Below, piece by piece: positions 725-63,900 of a DNA stretch of 64,000 nt (the first letter of the stretch is position 1; each line of letters begins with the position of its first letter). Source of the DNA: Endomicrobium proavitum (lineage in GTDB: Bacteria > Elusimicrobiota > Endomicrobiia > Endomicrobiales > Endomicrobiaceae). The position numbers and the translations under genes were made by a program. The notes below the pieces were generated by a model that saw nothing but the letters and a program-made list of their open reading frames with translations, ran no database searches and had not been told where the DNA came from. The DNA lies in NCBI RefSeq assembly GCF_001027545.1, contig NZ_CP009498.1, positions 1,364,001-1,428,000 on the forward strand, given 5' to 3'.

Positions 725-776
725 GTTAATTCCCCTTTTGCAAAAGGGGTGGCAGGCAAAGCCTGCCGGGGTATTT
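725..776 (+). repeat. Palindromic core repeat, copy 1 (forward)
   Basis: The core has the form GTTAATTCCCC, then a first hairpin CCCCTTTTGCAAAAGGGG, then a second hairpin (GGCAGGC AAA GCCTGCC), then GGGGTATTT. It ends two bases before the ATG of the DUF559 gene. An inverted partner core lies at the 3' end of the same gene (1138-1188). Confidence 0.85.
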
Positions 777-778
777 TG

Positions 779-1159
779 ATGTCAATATTACATTACAATA
801 GCAAACTAAAACAGACTTCGCGCAATTTAAGAAAAGCAGGAATTTTGCATGAAGTTTTACTTTGGCAGCAACTGAAATCTAAAAAATTAAACGGATTAAA
901 TTTTACCCGCCAAAAAGTAATAGGCAGTTATATAGTTGATTTTTATAACGCGGCAAATAAAATTGTTATTGAAATAGACGGACATTCGCATGATAATAAT
1001 GATAAACATGCGAAGGATATTTTAAGAGATAAATATTTAAGAAATTTAGGAATAAAAGTTATACGCATAACGGCAAAAGATGTTTTGCAGAATATAAACG
1101 GTGTTGTTGAGTTGTTAAAGCAAGAAACAAAGACAGAAATACCCCGTCAAGGTCGTTGA
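779..1159 (+). CDS. DUF559 small endonuclease-like protein
   Basis: A 126-residue stand-alone protein of the DUF559/Vsr-like PD-(D/E)XK nuclease group. The expected acidic residues are in order: E25 in the first helix (HEVLLW), D54 in SYIVDFY, E65 and D67 in IVIEIDG, then an LRDKYL helix and the strand GIKVIRIT. I start it at the ATG at 779 because the upstream in-frame GTG at 749 lies inside the palindromic core. The last codons and the stop also lie inside an inverted core copy, so the gene is bracketed by inverted repeats and encodes part of one (C-terminus IPRQGR). Family members are predicted DNA nucleases of unknown role. No methylase or specificity partner is adjacent. A link to mobility of the repeats is an inference. 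Confidence 0.8.
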   Translation: MSILHYNSKLKQTSRNLRKAGILHEVLLWQQLKSKKLNGLNFTRQKVIGSYIVDFYNAANKIVIEIDGHSHDNNDKHAKDILRDKYLRNLGIKVIRITAKDVLQNINGVVELLKQETKTEIPRQGR

Positions 1160-1188
1160 CCTTGCCACCCCTTTTGCAAAAGGGGAAT
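1138..1188 (-). repeat. Palindromic core repeat, copy 2 (inverted)
   Basis: The reverse complement reads as the core: ATTCCCC, first hairpin CCCCTTTTGCAAAAGGGG, second hairpin CAAGGTC AAC GACCTTG, then GGGGTATTT. It overlaps the last codons and stop of the DUF559 gene. Its second stem differs from copy 1 but matches the copy at 1559-1614. Confidence 0.85.
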
Positions 1189-1558
1189 AATACATGGGAA
1201 AAAGTTTGAAGTTAATATCAGAAAAATAAAAATGCCTTGTAGTTAATCCCCTTTTTTTAAGGGGTGAGTGTGCGACCAATAAGAAGCATTAGCCACAAAC
1301 GGGCGCTTGTAAATAAGATGTTAATCCAAAAACGAGCCTTCCCCGTAAGGTTGTAATACGGGGTAAAATAGATGGTAAGAGGCTGAGAAGGTAAGAAGGT
1401 AAGTAACGGCAAGTTGTTAAAGTAGAAAGTAGGAAGGAGTAAGGAGCAAGTGTTGTCAATTCCCCTTTTGCAGAAATAGATGGTAAGAGGTTGAGAAGGT
1501 AAGTAACGGCGAGAAAAAGTAGTAAGTAATAGTTAAAAAGGTAGGAAACAACAGAGGC
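1189..1558. repeat. Mosaic intergenic repeat region
   Basis: No gene is visible. From left to right: a degenerate core (AATCCCCTTTTTTTAAGGGG, 1242-1265), the 67-bp repeat B (listed separately), a purine-rich block, a ~65-bp conserved unit (CGGCAAGTTGTTAAAGTAGA onward, ~1410-1462) ending in a half core (TCAATTCCCCTTTTGCAG), and more GTAAGAGG-type words. The same 65-bp unit recurs near 25091-25150, 31335-31395 and 49672-49732, and reversed near 44170-44225 and 45465-45520. Confidence 0.7.
1298..1364 (+). repeat. Repeat B, copy 1
   Basis: About 67 bp beginning AACGGGCGCTTGTAAATAAG and ending in a hairpin CCCCGTA...TACGGGG. It is almost identical to 50642-50711, differing at only a few positions. 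No reading frame is evident. Confidence 0.75.
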
Positions 1559-25036: not shown

Positions 25037-25345
25037 CTATAACGGCAGAGGGTAAGAAGTTAGGAAGTTGGGAAGTTGAGAAGATGAGAAACGGCAAGTT
25101 GTTAAAGTAGAAAGTAGGAAGGAGTAAGGAGCAAGTGTTGTCAATTCCCCTGATAAAGATGATAAGAGGGTAGGATGGTAGGAAGATAAGTAACGGCAAG
25201 TAATAAAGAATAAGTAAAAGGTAACAAGCAGCGGAGTTGTTAATTCCCCTTTTATAAAAAGGGGTGCCCGATAGGGCGGGGTATTTGTTTTTTTGTCGTT
25301 GTTGAATGTCATTATTTAACATATAAAAGTAAAGGAATTAAATAA
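25037..25345. repeat. Mosaic intergenic repeat region with core copy
   Basis: There is no gene in these 309 bp. In order: GTAAGAAGTTAGGAAGTTGG-type purine words, the conserved 65-bp unit (~25091-25150) ending in a half core, a second purine block (GATAAGAGGGTAGGATGG), then the full palindromic core at 25239-25286. Minus-strand frames here (for example 25037-25312) are compositional. Confidence 0.75.
25239..25286 (+). repeat. Palindromic core repeat, copy 4
   Basis: CCCCTTTTATAAAAAGGGG first hairpin, second hairpin GCCC GATA GGGC, then GGGGTATTT. It ends 59 bp before the thrB start, in the same orientation. The shorter GCCC/GGGC stem is shared with the copy at 35878. Confidence 0.85.
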
Positions 25346-31301: not shown

Positions 31302-31642
31302 TAAATAGATGATAAGAAGGTAAGAGGATAGGAAGATGAGAAACGGCGAGTGGTTAAAGTAGGAAGGAGTAAGGAGCAAGTGTCGTTAATTCCCCTTTTG
31401 CAAAAGGGGTGCCTGATAACAAATTTTATACAAATTATGCACGTGAAGGAAAGAAGATAGGAGGGCAAGAGGATAAGCAACATCTTTTTTGAGTCTTTAC
31501 TCACCCTCTGCATCCTGTGTCGTTAATTCCCCTTTTATAAAAAGGGGTGGCAGGCGTAGCCTGACGGGGTATTTGTTGTTGTTTGTCATTAGCTGCTAAA
31601 TAATTTCAGCAATAAGCAAATTCTATAAGGAGGACAAACACT
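31302..31642. repeat. Mosaic intergenic repeat region with half and full cores
   Basis: No gene. Purine block (31305-31345), a shortened form of the conserved 65-bp unit, a first core lacking its second stem (31384-31418: CCCCTTTTGCAAAAGGGG then TGCCTGATAAC), a purine block AGGAGGGCAAGAGGATAAGC, a pyrimidine block (CTTTACTCACCCTCTGC) that pairs with it, and the full core at 31522-31574. Confidence 0.75.
31522..31574 (+). repeat. Palindromic core repeat, copy 5
   Basis: First hairpin CCCCTTTTATAAAAAGGGG, second hairpin CAGGC GTA GCCTG, then ACGGGGTATTT. It ends 68 bp before the ilvB start, in the same orientation. Confidence 0.85.
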
Positions 31643-35809: not shown

Positions 35810-35973
35810 GCAGTATAGAGGGTAAGAGGTTAAGAGGGTAGGAAGATAAGCAACGGCAAGTCACAAACAGCAGTGTCGTTAATTCCCCTTTTGAAAAAGG
35901 GGTGCCCGATAGGGCGGGGTATTTGTTGTTGTCCTTATTTAAACTTTGTCTTATAAAAAACTCGGAGCGTAAT
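35810..35973. repeat. Intergenic repeat block with core copy 6
   Basis: Purine words (GTAAGAGGTTAAGAGGGTAG) followed by the full core at 35878-35924: CCCCTTTTGAAAAAGGGG, second stem GCCC GATA GGGC, then GGGGTATTT. The core ends 49 bp before the TTG start of the PASTA gene, in the same orientation. Confidence 0.8.
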
Positions 35974-43984: not shown

Positions 43985-44264
43985 AATTTGAAAGAAGTTT
44001 TGTAAAACAGAGGATGAGAGGGTAGGATGACAGGAAGATAGGAGGACAAGAGGGTAAGCAACGTCTTTTTAGCTTTTACTTATCTTCTTGCCATCTTGTC
44101 ATCTTACCCTCCGCCTTTCAGGGCTGTTACTTAACTTCTTATCATCTATTTTTGCAAAAGGGGAATTAACGACACTTGCTCCTTACTCCTTCCTACTTTC
44201 TACTTTAACAACTTGTCGTTACTTATCTTCTCACCCTCCTACCTTCTTATCCTCTGCTTTACTG
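43985..44264. repeat. Mosaic intergenic repeat region (reverse orientation)
   Basis: No gene. A purine block (GATGAGAGGGTAGGATGACA) and a later pyrimidine block (CTTGCCATCTTGTCATCTTA) form an imperfect hairpin over about 44011-44104. A reversed half core (CAAAAGGGGAATTAACGACA, from ~44155) is followed by the reversed 65-bp unit (44170-44225) and another pyrimidine block. Confidence 0.7.
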
Positions 44265-44293: not shown

Positions 44294-44340
44294 AGTGAAG
44301 CAAAATTTATTACATTTGAAAAAGAGAAAAAACGTGATTT

Positions 44341-44404
<64 letters not shown>

Positions 44405-44436
44405 CATCTAAATACCTATTCTATATCTATAGCTTT

Positions 44437-45338: not shown

Positions 45339-45352
45339 AAATAATAGGGAAG

Positions 45353-45444
45353 ATGATAAGAGGATAGGAGGGTAGGAGGGTAAGCAACGTTTTTTTAGCT
45401 TTTACTTATCTTCTTACCCTCTTGCCCTCCTATCCTCTTATCAT
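45353..45444. repeat. Long purine/pyrimidine hairpin
   Basis: Left arm 45353-45384 (ATGATAAGAGGATAGGAGGG onward) and right arm 45413-45444 pair at 30 of 32 positions around a 28-base loop (CAACGTTTTTTTAGCTTTTA core). One strand of each arm is nearly pure purine. A reversed half core (TGCAAAAGGGGAATTGACAA) follows at ~45452, then the reversed 65-bp unit to ~45520. No gene lies in 45193-45634. Confidence 0.85.
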
Positions 45445-45634
45445 CTATTTCTGCAAAAGGGGAATTGACAACACTTGCTCCTTACTCCTTCCTACTTTCT
45501 ACTTTAACAACTTGCCGTTTCTTATCCTCTTACCCCCTCTGTTTTATTGAGCGTTTCACAAATCCCTTCTAAATTTTGTATAATCACTGCTGTCTTATAT
45601 TAAGTTACAATCATTACAAGCAAGGAGATAAGAA

Positions 45635-49628: not shown

Positions 49629-49921
49629 TTGCAAAGATGGATGATGAAGCAGAGGGTGGGAAGATGAGAAACGGCAAGTTGTTAAAGTAGAAAGTAGGAA
49701 GGAGTAAGGGGCAAGTGTTGTCAATTCCTCTTTTGCAGAAATAGATGATAAGAAGATAGGATGCAAGAGGGTAAGCAACGTCTTTTTGAGCCTTTACTCA
49801 CCCTCCGCCTTCCGTGTCGTTAATTCCCCTTTTATAAAAAGGGGTGGCGGACAAAGTCCGGCGGGGTATTTGTTTTTAATTTATAATTATTTTCTCATTG
49901 CATTTATAATATAAAAAACTC
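49629..49921. repeat. Mosaic intergenic repeat region with core copy 7
   Basis: No gene. The conserved 65-bp unit (~49672-49732) ends in a half core (TCAATTCCTCTTTTGCAG). A purine block and the pyrimidine block CTTTACTCACCCTCCGCC pair, and the full core is at 49819-49871 with second stem GGAC AAA GTCC. It ends 50 bp before rnhB, in the same orientation. Confidence 0.78.
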
Positions 49922-50711: not shown

Positions 50712-50980
50712 CGCCCCGGAAGTAGCGCAGTTACATTACAAAACTGCGACTACTTGGGCAGGGTGAGGGGTATGTAGTTCACCAAAAGTAATTATTCAAA
50801 AATAGATGGTAAGAGGGTGAGAAGGGGAGTAACGGCAAGTAACAAATAATAAATAATAGGTAATAAACTGCAGAGGATAAGAAGGTGCGAGGGTGGGAAG
50901 ATAGGAGGGTAAGCAACGTCTTTTTGAGTTTTTACTTACCGTCTTATCCTCTTATCTTCTCACCCTCTGCCTTCCGTGTC

Positions 50981-51033
50981 GTTAATTCCCCTTTTATAAA
51001 AAGGGGTGGCGGACAAAGTCCGGCGGGGTATTT
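50981..51033 (+). repeat. Palindromic core repeat, copy 8
   Basis: First hairpin CCCCTTTTATAAAAAGGGG, second hairpin GGAC AAA GTCC, then GGGGTATTT. It ends 67 bp before the yraN start, in the same orientation. Confidence 0.85.
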
Positions 51034-57900: not shown

Positions 57901-60900
57901 AATCTTAACGCAAACCTTCTTGTTTGGTCAAGCGTTGACGCAGCTTCAACAACGGTTGCCGCAAACGGTTCTTACTCTAATTTGGAATTAAGTTACGGCG
58001 GAAATTATACCGTTACTCCGGCTTTGGCAAATTTTATTTTTGAGCCGGCAGTTTTTGCAATAACCCCCTCAAGCGTAGGCGTTACGTTAACGCAAAATTT
58101 TACCGGTTTTGCCGTAAGTAAAACAAGCGGAAACGTTACAAATAATATCGGCGGCGCAGCGGCTAACGCCACGGTTTATATTTACGATGTTACTGCAAAC
58201 TCTACAATTACAAAATCTGCAGCAGGGTGGTATGTTGCGGAAAATTTAATTGAAGACAGAAACTATGTTATTACGCCTGTTGCCGACAGGTTTATATTTG
58301 CGCCGTCAAGTTTTGCGTTTACCGCAACAGCTGCAAATAAAATTCAACACTTTACCGCATATGCAATAAGCAACACAAGCGGAGTGATAAAAAACAATAA
58401 AGACAATTCAAACGTTGCCGCTACGGTTTACATAAAAGACGTTGCCGCAAATACGGTTTCAACAAAAACGGTAAACGGATTTTACGCAACAGATAATTTG
58501 GTTGAAGGCAGAAACTATGTGATAAACATTGAAGCGCCGAACTTTTTATTTGTGCCTTCAAGCTACGCGTTTAGCGCAAGCGCGTCTGATGAAGCGCGCA
58601 ACTTTGCGGCTTTTGCCGTAAGCCGTTCAAGCGGAACAATAAAAAATAATATCGGCGGCGCAAATGTTAACGCTAATATATATGTGTATGACGTTCTTGC
58701 AAACTCTACGGCAACAAAGTCAGCAAACGGCTGGTATCAAACGGATTATTTGTATGAAAGCAAAAACTATGTGCTTACGCCTTTTGCAGACAGATTTATG
58801 TTTGTTCCGTCAAGCGTTGCTTTTGCGGCAACAAACGCGGACGTTGTTTACAGCTTTACCGGTTACGCGCTTTCCAAAACAAGCGGAACGATAAAAAATA
58901 ATAAAGATAATTCTAACGTTAACGCAAGCATGTCCGTTTACGATACTGCGGCAAATTCTACAAATACGTTTTCATCGGGTTCGGGTTTTTATGCAACAGG
59001 GTGGCTTACCGAAGGTAAAAATTACGTTGTAACGCCGCAGGCCGACAGATTTAAATTTTCTCCTGTAAATACCGCTGTCAACGCGTCTAATTTAGATATA
59101 TACAGAAACTTTATAGCCACAGCGTTAAGCATTGCAAGCGGAACAATTAAAAACAACGCCGGCGGCGGCAACATTAACGCTACCGTTTACATTTATGACG
59201 TTGTTGCAAATTCCAGCGCAACAAAATCTGCCAACGGCTTTTATGTTACCGATTGGCTGGACGAAGGAAAGAACTTTATTATAACGCCGGCGGCAAACAG
59301 ATTTAAATTTGTTCCGCAAAGCGCGTCTTTTACGGCGGCCGCGGCGGACGTATTTAAAAATTTCACAGGATACGCTTTAAGCGTTACCAGCGGCGTTGTA
59401 AAAAATAATATCGGCGGCGCAAATGTTAACGCTAATATATATGTGTATGACGTTCTTGCAAACTCTACGATAACAAAATCCGCAAACGGTTTTTACGCTA
59501 CGGACGATTTAACGGAAGGTCAAAATTATATTATTACAGCAAAGGCCGCAGGGTTTAAATTTCTTCCGCAGTCTTACGCGTTTACCGCGGGCTCTGCAGA
59601 CGCAGCAAAAAACTTTACGGGTTACGCTTTAAGCTACGCTACCGTAACTTTGAAAAACGCGCAAAACGGCGCCAATGTAAATGTTAATATAAAAATATAC
59701 GATTCGCTTTCAAACTCCACAAATACAATTTATGCGTCGGGGGGGGCGTACGTAATAGAAGCTACGGAAGGATTATCTTACGCAATAACTCCAGACGATG
59801 AACTTTACGAATGGACTCCGGCAAGTTGGACGTTTACCGCGACTACCGCAAATAGAGCTCAAATATTTAGCGGAGCAGTAAAAAAGATTTTAAGCGGCAA
59901 CATAACAAATAATATCAACAGCGCGCCGCTTGCGATAAATTTAAATATTTTTGACGTTGCTCTTAATTCTACCATAACAAAAACCGGCGTAAGTTCGTAT
60001 AGCACGGGTCTTGTTTACGGCAAGCAATACGTTGTAACGCCGTCCTTGGCAAACTTTATGTTTGTTCCGTCAAGTTTTGCTTTTACGGCGGGAAACGTTG
60101 ATATAACGCAAAACTTTACGGGTTACGCATTAAGCAAAACCAGCGGTACGGTAAAAAATAATACCGGCGGCGCAAATGTTAACGCTACAATTTATATTTA
60201 TGATATTGTTGCAAATTCAACTGCAACAAAATCCGCAACCGGTTTTTACGCCAGCGACAATTTAATTGAAGGCAGAAATTACATAATAACGCCGCAAGCC
60301 GCAAACTTCAGATTTGAGCCGCAAAGCGTAAATCTAACGGCTACAAATGCGGACGTGTTTAGAAATTTCACAGGCTATGCGTTAAGTAAAACTACGGGAA
60401 CGGTTCTCAACAATAAAGATAGTTCCGCCGTAAGCGCTAATATACATATATATAGCGTAGTCGCAAATTCCACAGTAACAAAATCTGCCAACGGGTTCTA
60501 TATAACGGACGATTTGGATCAAGGTAAAAATTACGTAATAACCCCTATTGCCAACAGGTTTATGTTTGTTCCCGAAAAAGATACGTTTACAGCAACAACT
60601 TCAAACAGAGTTGCAAACTTTACAGGCTACGCGGTAAGCATTACAAGCGGCGTTGTGAAAAATAACATAGGCGGCGCAAACGTCAACGCAACGGTTTACA
60701 TTTGGGACGCAGTTGCAAATTCAACGATAACAAAATCTGCAAACGGCTTTTACGCCAGCGACAATTTAATTGAAGGCAGAAATTATGTGATAACGCCGCA
60801 AGCTGCAAACTTTAGATTTACGCCGCAAAGCGTAAGTTTTACGGCAACAAGCGCGGATACGTATAAGAATTTTACGGGATATGCAATAAGCAAAAGCAGC

Positions 60901-63900
60901 GGCACGATAAAAAATAATATAGGCGGGGCAAACGTCAACGCAACGGTTTACATTTGGGACGTAGTCGCAAATTCCACAGTAACAAAATCTGCCAACGGGT
61001 TCTATATAACGGACGATTTGGATCAAGGTAAAAATTACGTAATAACCCCTATTGCCAACAGGTTTATGTTTGTTCCCGAAAAAGATACGTTTACAGCAAC
61101 AACTTCAAACAGAGTTGCAAACTTTACAGGCTACGCGGTAAGCATTACAAGCGGCGTTGTGAAAAATAACATAGGCGGCGCAAACGTCAACGCAACGGTT
61201 TACATTTGGGACGCAGTTGCAAATTCAACGATAACAAAATCTGCAAACGGCTTTTACGCCAGCGACAATTTAATTGAAGGCAGAAATTATGTGATAACGC
61301 CGCAAGCTGCAAACTTTAGATTTACGCCGCAAAGCGTAAGTTTTACGGCAACAAGCGCGGATACGTATAAGAATTTTACGGGATATGCAATAAGCAAAAG
61401 CAGCGGCACGATAAAAAATAATATAGGCGGGGCAAACGTCAACGCAACGGTTTACATTTGGGACGTAGTCGCAAATTCCACAGTAACAAAATCTGCCAAC
61501 GGGTTCTATATAACGGACGATTTGGATCAAGGTAAAAATTACGTAATAACCCCTATTGCCAACAGGTTTATGTTTGTTCCCGAAAAAGATACGTTTACAG
61601 CAACAACTTCAAACAGAGTTGCAAACTTTACAGGCTACGCGGTAAGCATTACAAGCGGCGTTGTGAAAAATAACATAGGCGGCGCAAACGTCAACGCAAC
61701 GGTTTACATTTGGGACGCAGTTGCAAATTCAACGATAACAAAATCTGCAAACGGCTTTTACGCCAGCGACAATTTAATTGAAGGCAGAAATTATGTGATA
61801 ACGCCGCAAGCTGCAAACTTTAGATTTACGCCGCAAAGCGTAAGTTTTACGGCAACAAGCGCGGATACGTATAAGAATTTTACGGGATATGCAATAAGCA
61901 AAAGCAGCGGCACGATAAAAAATAATATAGGCGGGGCAAACGTCAACGCAACGGTTTACATTTGGGACGTAGTCGCAAATTCCACAGTAACAAAATCTGC
62001 CAACGGGTTCTATATAACGGACGATTTGGATCAAGGTAAAAATTACGTAATAACCCCGGTTGCCAACAGATTTATGTTTGTTCCCGAAAAAGATACGTTT
62101 ACAGCAACAACCTTAAACAGAGTTACAAACTTTACCGGTTTTGCTTTAAGCTTTGCCACGGGAACGCTTAAAAACGTTGCGAATAATTCAAATGTAAATG
62201 TTTCCGTCAGAGTTTATGATGTCTCGGCAAATTCTGCCACAATTATAAATAACGCAAACGGTTTTTACAGCGCGCGCGTTATTGAAGGCAGAAACTATAT
62301 AATTACTCCGGACAACGAATTTTACGAATGGACTCCGGCAAGCTGGACGTTTACCGCAGGAGCAACTGACAAAATTCAAAATTTTGTCGGCGCTAAAAAA
62401 ACTGCAGTAACGGGAACGATAAAAAATAATATCGGCGCAACAAATATAAACGCAAACATTTATATTTATGACGGAACCGCAACTACTACAAAAACCGTTA
62501 CCGGCTCTTACAGCGCAGGGCTTGTTTTCGGTAAAACTTACACGTTAACGCCGAAGGCGGACAGATTTATTTTTGTTCCCGCAAGCTGGACGTTTACCGC
62601 CGACAGCAGCGATAAAGTGCAAAATTTTACAGGCAAAGCGATAAGCTGGACAAGCGGAACCGTCCGCAATAATAAGGATAATTCCAACGTTAACGCAACT
62701 GTTTACATTTGGGACGTTCTTGCAAACTCTACCGCGGCGGTTATAAACGCAAACGGTTTTTATTCAAGCGGTTATTTAATTGAAGGTCAAAATTATGTGA
62801 TAACGCCGACGGCGGCAAACTTTATATTTGTTCCCGCGGCGTCAACGTTTACGGCTACAAGCGCCGACGCGCTTAAAAACTTTACAGGTTTTGCGCTTTC
62901 CAAATCAAGCGGAACTATAAAAAATAATACCGGCGGCGCAAACGTGAGCGCTACGGTTTATATTTATGACGTTCTTGCAAACTCTACGGCAACAAAATCC
63001 GCCAACGGGTTCTACGCTACCGACGATTTAATTGAAGGCAGAAATTACGTGATAACTCCCGTTGCAAACAGATTTGTGTTTGTTCCGCAGCGCGATACGT
63101 TTACCGCCGCATCGGTAAACAGAGAATTAAATTTTACCGGTTACGCCACAAGCATTTTAAGCGGAACGGTTAAAGGCGCCGTAAGAACAAATCAAAATAT
63201 TGCCGGACAAATGCGCGTGTATGACAACTTTACAAACTCTACAAACGTTTACGCCTTTGACGGACGCTATGAAGTTAACACGGTTGAAGGGTATAAATAC
63301 GAGCTTGCGCCTTTTGGCAGCAGAGTTTTATTTACAACCGCCGCGGGCGTATTTAACGCTTCAACTTTTGCTTATACTGCGACAAGTCAGGACAAGCGTC
63401 AGGATTTTGTTGCTTACGCTTTAACAAAAGCAAGCGCGACAATTTTAAATAATATCGGAAATACCGCGGCATGGGCGGACGTTTATCTCTACGACGCCGC
63501 GGCAAATTCTACGCTTACATGGACGCATAACACCGGCGGCGCAAACGAAACTCAAGATTTAATTGAAGGCAGAAATTACGTTATATCGGTTGTTCCTTAT
63601 ACTGGCGGAATGACTCCGGTAAATCAGAGAAACTTTATATTCAAACCGTCAAGCGTGGCGTTTACCGCCGCAACTGCCGATAGGTTTGACGCAATTAAAG
63701 CTTACAGATTTACTTATATCAGCGCTACGGTAACAAACGTTCAGTATGCCACCGCGGTTGTAAGCGGAATGATGCATATAACCGATTCGTTCTTTGGAGA
63801 TCAGCACATTGCGTTTGCAAGCACGCACACTTATGTAATTGTTGAAGGCATGAGCTACGCGTTTGCGCCGGAAGCGGCAAGCCATGTTATTGACGCGTAT

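Follow-up and report, generated by a model that had tools for sequence, protein, structure and literature searches.

The 64,000-nucleotide window analysed here (the whole stretch of DNA) is part of the complete 1.589-Mb genome of a member of the Endomicrobium family and carries a DUF559 (PF04480) gene that is bracketed by two inverted copies of a palindromic core, an arrangement that the preliminary description had reported and that we also observed. The gene (positions 779 to 1159, forward strand, 126 amino acids, ATG start; identified by ORF, Pfam match and predicted structure) begins two bases past the left core (725 to 776, forward strand; exact pattern match at 732 to 773). This core, which we designate type A, is made up of a triplex motif CCCCTTTTgcAAAAGGGG, hairpin 2 GGCAGGCaaaGCCTGCC and a third strand GGGGTATTT. 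The right, inverted type A core (1138 to 1188, reverse strand; exact pattern match at 1140 to 1185) holds the last DUF559 codons and the stop codon, and the C-terminus of the protein reads into it. DUF559 is the only ORF between the two cores.

All six gene-less forward cores that had been listed for the window (starting at 1559, 25239, 31522, 35878, 49819 and 50981) are present. Their solo cores span 1566 to 1611, 25246 to 25283, 31529 to 31571, 35885 to 35921, 49826 to 49868 and 50988 to 51030, all on the forward strand; the first of them is 96% complementary to the inverted right core over 52 nt. A partial forward core with hairpin 1 only and no third strand lies at 31392 to 31411. The cores contain a third block, GGGGTA, that was overlooked in the preliminary description and that completes an intrastrand triplex motif. 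Tested as single-stranded DNA, three window cores gave folding z scores of −3.4 to −4.6. Throughout the 1.59-Mb genome, CCCCTTTTNNNAAAGGGG is found at 22 sites on the forward and 21 on the reverse strand (reversed control, 0), and the full-core pattern has 20 matches (control, 0). Among adjacent type A cores of this genome with a spacing below 3 kb, a single pair is convergent, the one enclosing the DUF559 gene. The genome's only other DUF559 gene is located 12 kb upstream of the window and has inverted cores on both sides, which are of a different, BoxC-like type (type B; CCCTCGCCCCTTGCGGGAGAGGGTAGGGTGAGGGG); the two type B cores that are oriented towards each other enclose this second gene.

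The window protein matches PF04480 with an E value of 8.4e−30 (103 bits against a curated cut-off of 20.6). Its structure model (AlphaFold, pLDDT 86.7) matches gonococcal 3hrl, the homing endonuclease I-Bth0305I and Vsr, and TnsA more weakly. 3hrl is the structure of gonococcal NGO0050, a member of a large uncharacterised nuclease family to which E. coli YcjD also belongs. I-Bth0305I shares with DUF559 both the fold (Foldseek, 2.7e−4; Z 12.0, rmsd 2.9 over 94 residues) and significant sequence similarity (hmmsearch profile, E = 1.4e−4). An acidic/histidine motif, D..E-x-D-G-x-x-H, is invariant in a 40-sequence alignment and is present in 78 of 80 DUF559 loci; the residues invariant in this alignment are R17, E24, W28, R43, Q44, D53, E64, D66, G67, H70 and D79. 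Judged by its predicted structure, DUF559 is a Vsr-fold PD-(D/E)XK nuclease, in line with the earlier expectation of a nuclease-like enzyme and no transposase.

Knowledge of BoxC, PIT and TM repeats in E. coli goes back to the 1990s, and we know of no mobiliser for them. Holder et al. (2015, PMC4666352) describe them as purine-motif intrastrand triplexes, with formation in vitro shown for the E. coli motif, and report them from over 260 genomes. By sequence comparison, the cores described here have the architecture of these repeats, a kinship that the preliminary description missed. Nearly all flank arms consist of a C-block, a G-block that closes the hairpin and a second G-block, and the cores are likewise dispersed in many bacteria. 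Type B cores (CCCTCGCCCCTTGCGGGAGAGGGtAGGGTGAGGGG) closely match E. coli BoxC (CCCTCGCCCCTTTGGGGAGAGGGTTAGGGTGAGGGG), whereas type A cores have an extra hairpin between strands 2 and 3. A further difference is that no gene partner or mobility role is reported for the known repeats (PMC4666352), whereas here a DUF559 gene lies between inverted motifs. Two E. coli records hold 27 and 11 strict BoxC copies, several of which form convergent pairs with a recurring spacer.

In a purine triplex, a third-strand A or T is expected on an A:T pair and a third-strand G on a G:C pair. Across 113 unique type A cores, a duplex A goes with a third-strand A in 76 cases and with G in 2, while a duplex G goes with a third-strand G in 35 and with A in none (Fisher test, P = 3e−27, a value that overstates independence because the cores share ancestry). 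The A and G third-strand variants coexist within single genomes. Across phyla, triad agreement is 92%, compared to 74% (maximum 80%) when the strands are permuted; in this wider set, only the first G-run anchors the third strand. These comparisons indicate that a three-strand (C-G-G) purine-triplex code is conserved in the motif, and a triplex is predicted in the cores. Nearly all cores have a palindromic second hairpin, located between strands 2 and 3, and 49 distinct stem arms of it occur among the 113 cores. In the cores of G000, G010, G022 and G032, this hairpin appears to change rapidly with its pairing kept, as if self-templated.

The association of gene and repeat extends well beyond the window. 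At 80 DUF559 loci from at least a dozen phyla, obtained from a scan of 85,000 species genomes, inverted repeats (score of at least 30, within 250 bp of the gene) flank 57 genes, compared to 0 of 400 control positions chosen at equal spacing within these loci; because the loci were selected for their resemblance to seven seed genes, of which most are flanked, this proportion holds for this part of the DUF559 family, and large multidomain DUF559 proteins (ORFs of 1,200+ amino acids) lie outside the count. The remaining 23 loci have no flanks at this threshold. A triplex motif at both ends with the tails inward was found in 51/90 cases versus 0/450 controls. Among other Endomicrobiaceae loci, two have type B ends (L020 and L021), three have type A ends (L022, L023 and L037) and one has none (L024). 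A genome may carry up to 8 DUF559 copies. E. coli ycjD fits this arrangement only partly: in one strain, the 3′ end of the gene runs into a BoxC core, and at the 5′ end there is an unrelated palindrome and BoxC was not found.

The class of the flanking motif follows the phylogeny of the protein. The protein tree separates an SH clade (clade I; E-x-D-G-G/Y-S-H) from a GQH clade (clade II), to which E. coli YcjD belongs by its motif (E-L-D-G-G-Q-H). Mapped on this tree, the motif class changes 22 times, compared to a mean of 41 and a minimum of 34 for shuffled classes. The BoxC/GGGAGGG classes are found at 0 of 38 SH-clade loci and at 21 of 32 GQH-clade loci (P = 3e−10), and the genome of the window has both clades, each with its own motif type. 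Comparison of the loci thus shows that each nuclease clade has its own motif classes.

The presence of cores in a genome is also linked to the presence of the gene. Among 60 Endomicrobiaceae genomes, any core was found in 6 of 7 with a stand-alone DUF559 gene and in 8 of 53 without (P = 4e−4). All 4 genomes that carry a GQH-clade gene have type B cores, compared to 4 of the remaining 56 (P = 1e−4), and type A cores were found in 4 of the 5 genomes with an SH-clade gene and in 8 of the remaining 55 (P = 0.004). A survey of 120 Hymenobacteraceae genomes found one core type in 56 of 107 with DUF559 and 2 of 13 without (P = 0.017). All of these P values ignore relatedness, and several of the genomes are incomplete. 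Equal frequency of cores in relatives that lack the gene, which would have spoken against the link, was therefore not observed. The stricter expectation, that genomes without DUF559 lack cores, held in part: cores are much rarer there, but they still occur in 8 of the 53 Endomicrobiaceae and 2 of the 13 Hymenobacteraceae genomes.

Orthologous sites, proposed earlier as a source of clean presence or absence, are informative about the extent of the unit and show that the pairing of gene and motif occurs even within essential genes. In four Hymenobacteraceae genomes, metH contains a whole unit, with EEEKARVAALE on one side and SRFAGKILLATVKGDVH on the other, or close variants of these; in 115 other genomes from this family, nothing interrupts the junction. 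The insert spans motif to motif, with the left motif degraded in L169, and is in frame throughout in three of the four genomes and frameshifted past the insert in L171. A DUF559 unit is likewise found in frame in ispE of four Gastranaerophilales genomes, in the linker before NDLEWAVIDDY, with relatives uninterrupted; one of these four units (L226) has a degraded right-hand end and yielded no scored inverted repeat. The four filled genomes in each case may represent one inherited event or several. In the metH and ispE inserts, the tails point outward and not inward, and the outward orientation reads without stops. No target-site duplication was recognised by eye at the metH and ispE junctions or at the outer flanks, which lack an exact recent empty site for comparison. 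These comparisons show that the unit moves as one piece, bounded by the motifs. In three Hymenobacteraceae genomes (L172, L173 and L174), a phosphoribosylformylglycinamidine synthase-like protein continues in frame at its C-terminus into a DUF559 element; its purQ/purL identity was assigned by reading alone.

BoxC is also present or absent depending on the E. coli strain at trpS-yhfZ and gcvP-ygfF. Because these sites are messy, with a REP-like block replacing BoxC in one strain, they show polymorphism and not exact ends. At trpS-yhfZ (L136, L162 and L163), the strains have BoxC, a REP-like block or neither, and this site is a hot spot common to two repeat families.

Copies without a gene are abundant in some genomes. 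A generic motif pattern has 239, 160 and 219 matches in two Pontibacter genomes and one Bacteroidaceae genome (control, 0 to 1) and no match in 6 of 50 genomes with flanked DUF559 genes. Adjacent cores less than 300 bp apart in five Hymenobacteraceae genomes are convergent in 27 cases and otherwise oriented in none; in one of these five genomes (G136), a DUF559 gene was undetected. Sixteen gene-less pairs were read from end to end: their surroundings differ, and their sub-terminal sequence is conserved (GACAAGGC..AAGAACC and CAGCACGAGTAATC, with close variants and in both orientations). This comparison shows that non-autonomous gene-less copies exist. Another palindromic repeat (GTAGGGGCAATCCCTTGTGGTTGCCC) is nested in several gene-less convergent pairs (L229, L230, L233-L236, L238 and L244).

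We propose that the unit consisting of a triplex motif, a DUF559 nuclease gene and an inverted triplex motif is probably a mobile element, and that its non-autonomous copies are the scattered solo motifs together with the convergent pairs that lack a gene. The architecture suggested in the preliminary description, an autonomous nuclease-bearing element with short non-autonomous copies, is supported by the flanks at 57 of 80 loci, the metH and ispE insertions, the convergent gene-less pairs and the tracking of protein clade by core class. Comparison across loci and genomes shows the unit, its ends, its cognate pairing with the protein, its insertion and its non-autonomous copies. For the mechanism, cutting and copying by the DUF559 nuclease, we infer each chemical step. 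The motif would fold in single-stranded DNA, as on the template of the lagging strand, or under supercoiling, and the Vsr/homing-type nuclease would recognise the folded motif (hairpin or triplex) or its sequence and nick or cut at it. Repair or replication from the broken 3′ end would then copy the motif-bounded DNA to a new site, and solo motifs and gene-less pairs could be mobilised in trans. A nuclease without a strand-transfer domain would be unusual as the sole mobility enzyme, which counts against the mobile-element reading. So do the cores in genomes where no DUF559 gene was detected, the 23 of 80 loci below the flank threshold, the selection of the 80 loci by similarity to largely flanked seeds, the outward tails of the metH and ispE inserts, the failure to recognise a target-site duplication, the single BoxC of E. 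coli ycjD and the mismatch-repair interpretation of Caulobacter VsrA.

Alternatively, the motifs may multiply by another route, such as replication slippage, template switching or a host recombinase, and DUF559 may process or resolve the resulting structures, gene and motif then being neighbours because their linkage is useful. E. coli triplex motifs have been linked to genomic instability (Holder et al. 2015, PMC4666352), the second hairpin varies yet stays palindromic (49 arms among 113 cores), suggesting self-templated correction, and some genomes hold cores without a DUF559 gene. However, this explanation does not account for gene-bearing blocks that sit motif to motif inside metH and ispE, nor for inverted motifs at both ends across phyla, and we consider it unlikely.

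It is improbable, in our assessment, that DUF559 is a captured passenger and that the motif pairs are MITE-like ends moved in trans by an unrelated transposase. Short convergent pairs do resemble MITEs, and in Legionella, three copies are reported of a segment that contains a transposase and a DUF559 gene (PMC12308824). Yet the only convergent pairs in the genome of the window enclose DUF559 genes, the motif class follows the DUF559 tree, and remnants of transposases or integrases were never found in the surroundings of the E. coli motifs (Holder et al., PMC4666352).

The Vsr fold also allows for DUF559 to be a host mismatch-repair nuclease whose flanking motifs are incidental or regulatory. 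In Caulobacter cells that lack a cytosine methyltransferase, DNA damage depends on VsrA, a protein with a DUF559 domain that has been interpreted as a nuclease of mismatch repair (PMC12907096). This interpretation supports the host-repair explanation, and the underlying result suggests that a DUF559 family member can damage DNA in vivo. Given the flanks at 57 of 80 loci versus 0 of 400 positions, the in-frame insertion into unrelated genes and the multiple copies per genome (up to 8), we regard such a role as very improbable. A chance or low-complexity artefact, conceivable for cores that are C/G-rich palindromes, has a negligible probability and was excluded because the reversed and control patterns gave 0 matches in the genome and the position controls gave 0/400 and 0/450.

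Among known systems, the mobile element that we propose invites comparison with REP/BIME-RAYT systems and REPINs, in which a dedicated gene is also flanked by palindromic repeats and accompanied by dispersed solo repeats and inverted pairs. We treat this resemblance as an analogy and not as membership: the proposed element would operate in the manner of a REP/RAYT or MITE system in which a homing-type nuclease takes the place of the transposase. The enzyme here is predicted to be a Vsr-fold DUF559 protein and not a Y1 HUH transposase, the motif has a third triplex strand, and gene-bearing copies lie in frame within genes; the GTAG/CGTC tag is absent from the window cores, which start with ATTCCCC and end with GGGGTATTT. 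MITEs and insertion sequences share inverted ends, gene-less derivatives and insertion into genes, whereas here the ends are triplex motifs, there is no transposase between the window cores and no target-site duplication was recognised. Homing enzymes spread DNA by cutting, and the fixed-site insertions in metH and ispE, empty in relatives, recall a homing element; most copies of the DUF559 system, however, are dispersed. The PDB entry of I-Bth0305I calls it a mobile intron protein, whereas inverted terminal repeats and non-autonomous copies are features of the DUF559 elements, in which we identified no intron or intein. Vsr and Caulobacter VsrA share the fold and, for VsrA, the DUF559 domain, and differ in that the DUF559 members analysed here are linked to dispersed repeats. 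The proposed element thus departs from REP/RAYT in its enzyme and in the missing tag, and from homing endonucleases in its terminal repeats and dispersed gene-less copies. In the open-access literature (subscription journals and preprints were outside the search), we found no paper linking DUF559 to triplex repeats; papers on Caulobacter VsrA, Thermosynechococcus inteins and Legionella hotspots mention DUF559 with no link to these repeats.

We further conjecture, with the evidence evenly poised, that DUF559/YcjD genes with triplex-motif ends are bacteria-wide, nuclease-driven mobile elements in which a Vsr/homing-type nuclease reads an intrastrand triplex, and that they are the source of the BoxC/PIT/TM repeats. 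A candidate partner enzyme can thereby be named for a very widespread repeat class, and the data point to DUF559/YcjD as the long-missing partner that spreads BoxC repeats. A function is at the same time proposed for a large uncharacterised nuclease family. Triplex DNA is usually deemed an accident, and our data suggest that it may be the recognition end of a mobile element.

Two other readings of the locus were rejected. A cmscan search of the first 2.5 kb for RNA families gave only a sub-threshold SprD match outside the element, which was dismissed as chance, and PADLOC matches to defence systems were only weak and partial (DpdF and mREase_II).

Several further repeats were noted. In mosaic copies (L009, L013, L014 and L015; window positions 1248 to 1300), GTGAGTGTGCGACGAATAAGGAGCACGAGC or a variant of it comes after hairpin 1 and replaces hairpin 2 and the third strand. 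A second, purine-rich intergenic repeat family (GGTAAGAAGGTAAGAGG... AACGGCAAGTTGTTAAAGTAGAAAGTAGGAAGGAGTAAGGAGCAAG; 100 to 130 bp, on both strands) often adjoins a triplex core and is located in the window at 641 to 695, 1363 to 1503, 25053 to 25209, 31303 to 31405, 44130 to 44262, 45349 to 45539, 49633 to 49761 and 50794 to 50932. An (AGAC)n tetranucleotide tract of about 17 units (44335 to 44412) is a possible slippage or phase-variation site. Finally, positions 58095 to 63591 hold an array of a 252-nt (84-amino-acid) repeat, some units of which are identical over 300 nt, and which is a candidate repetitive ORF or surface protein.
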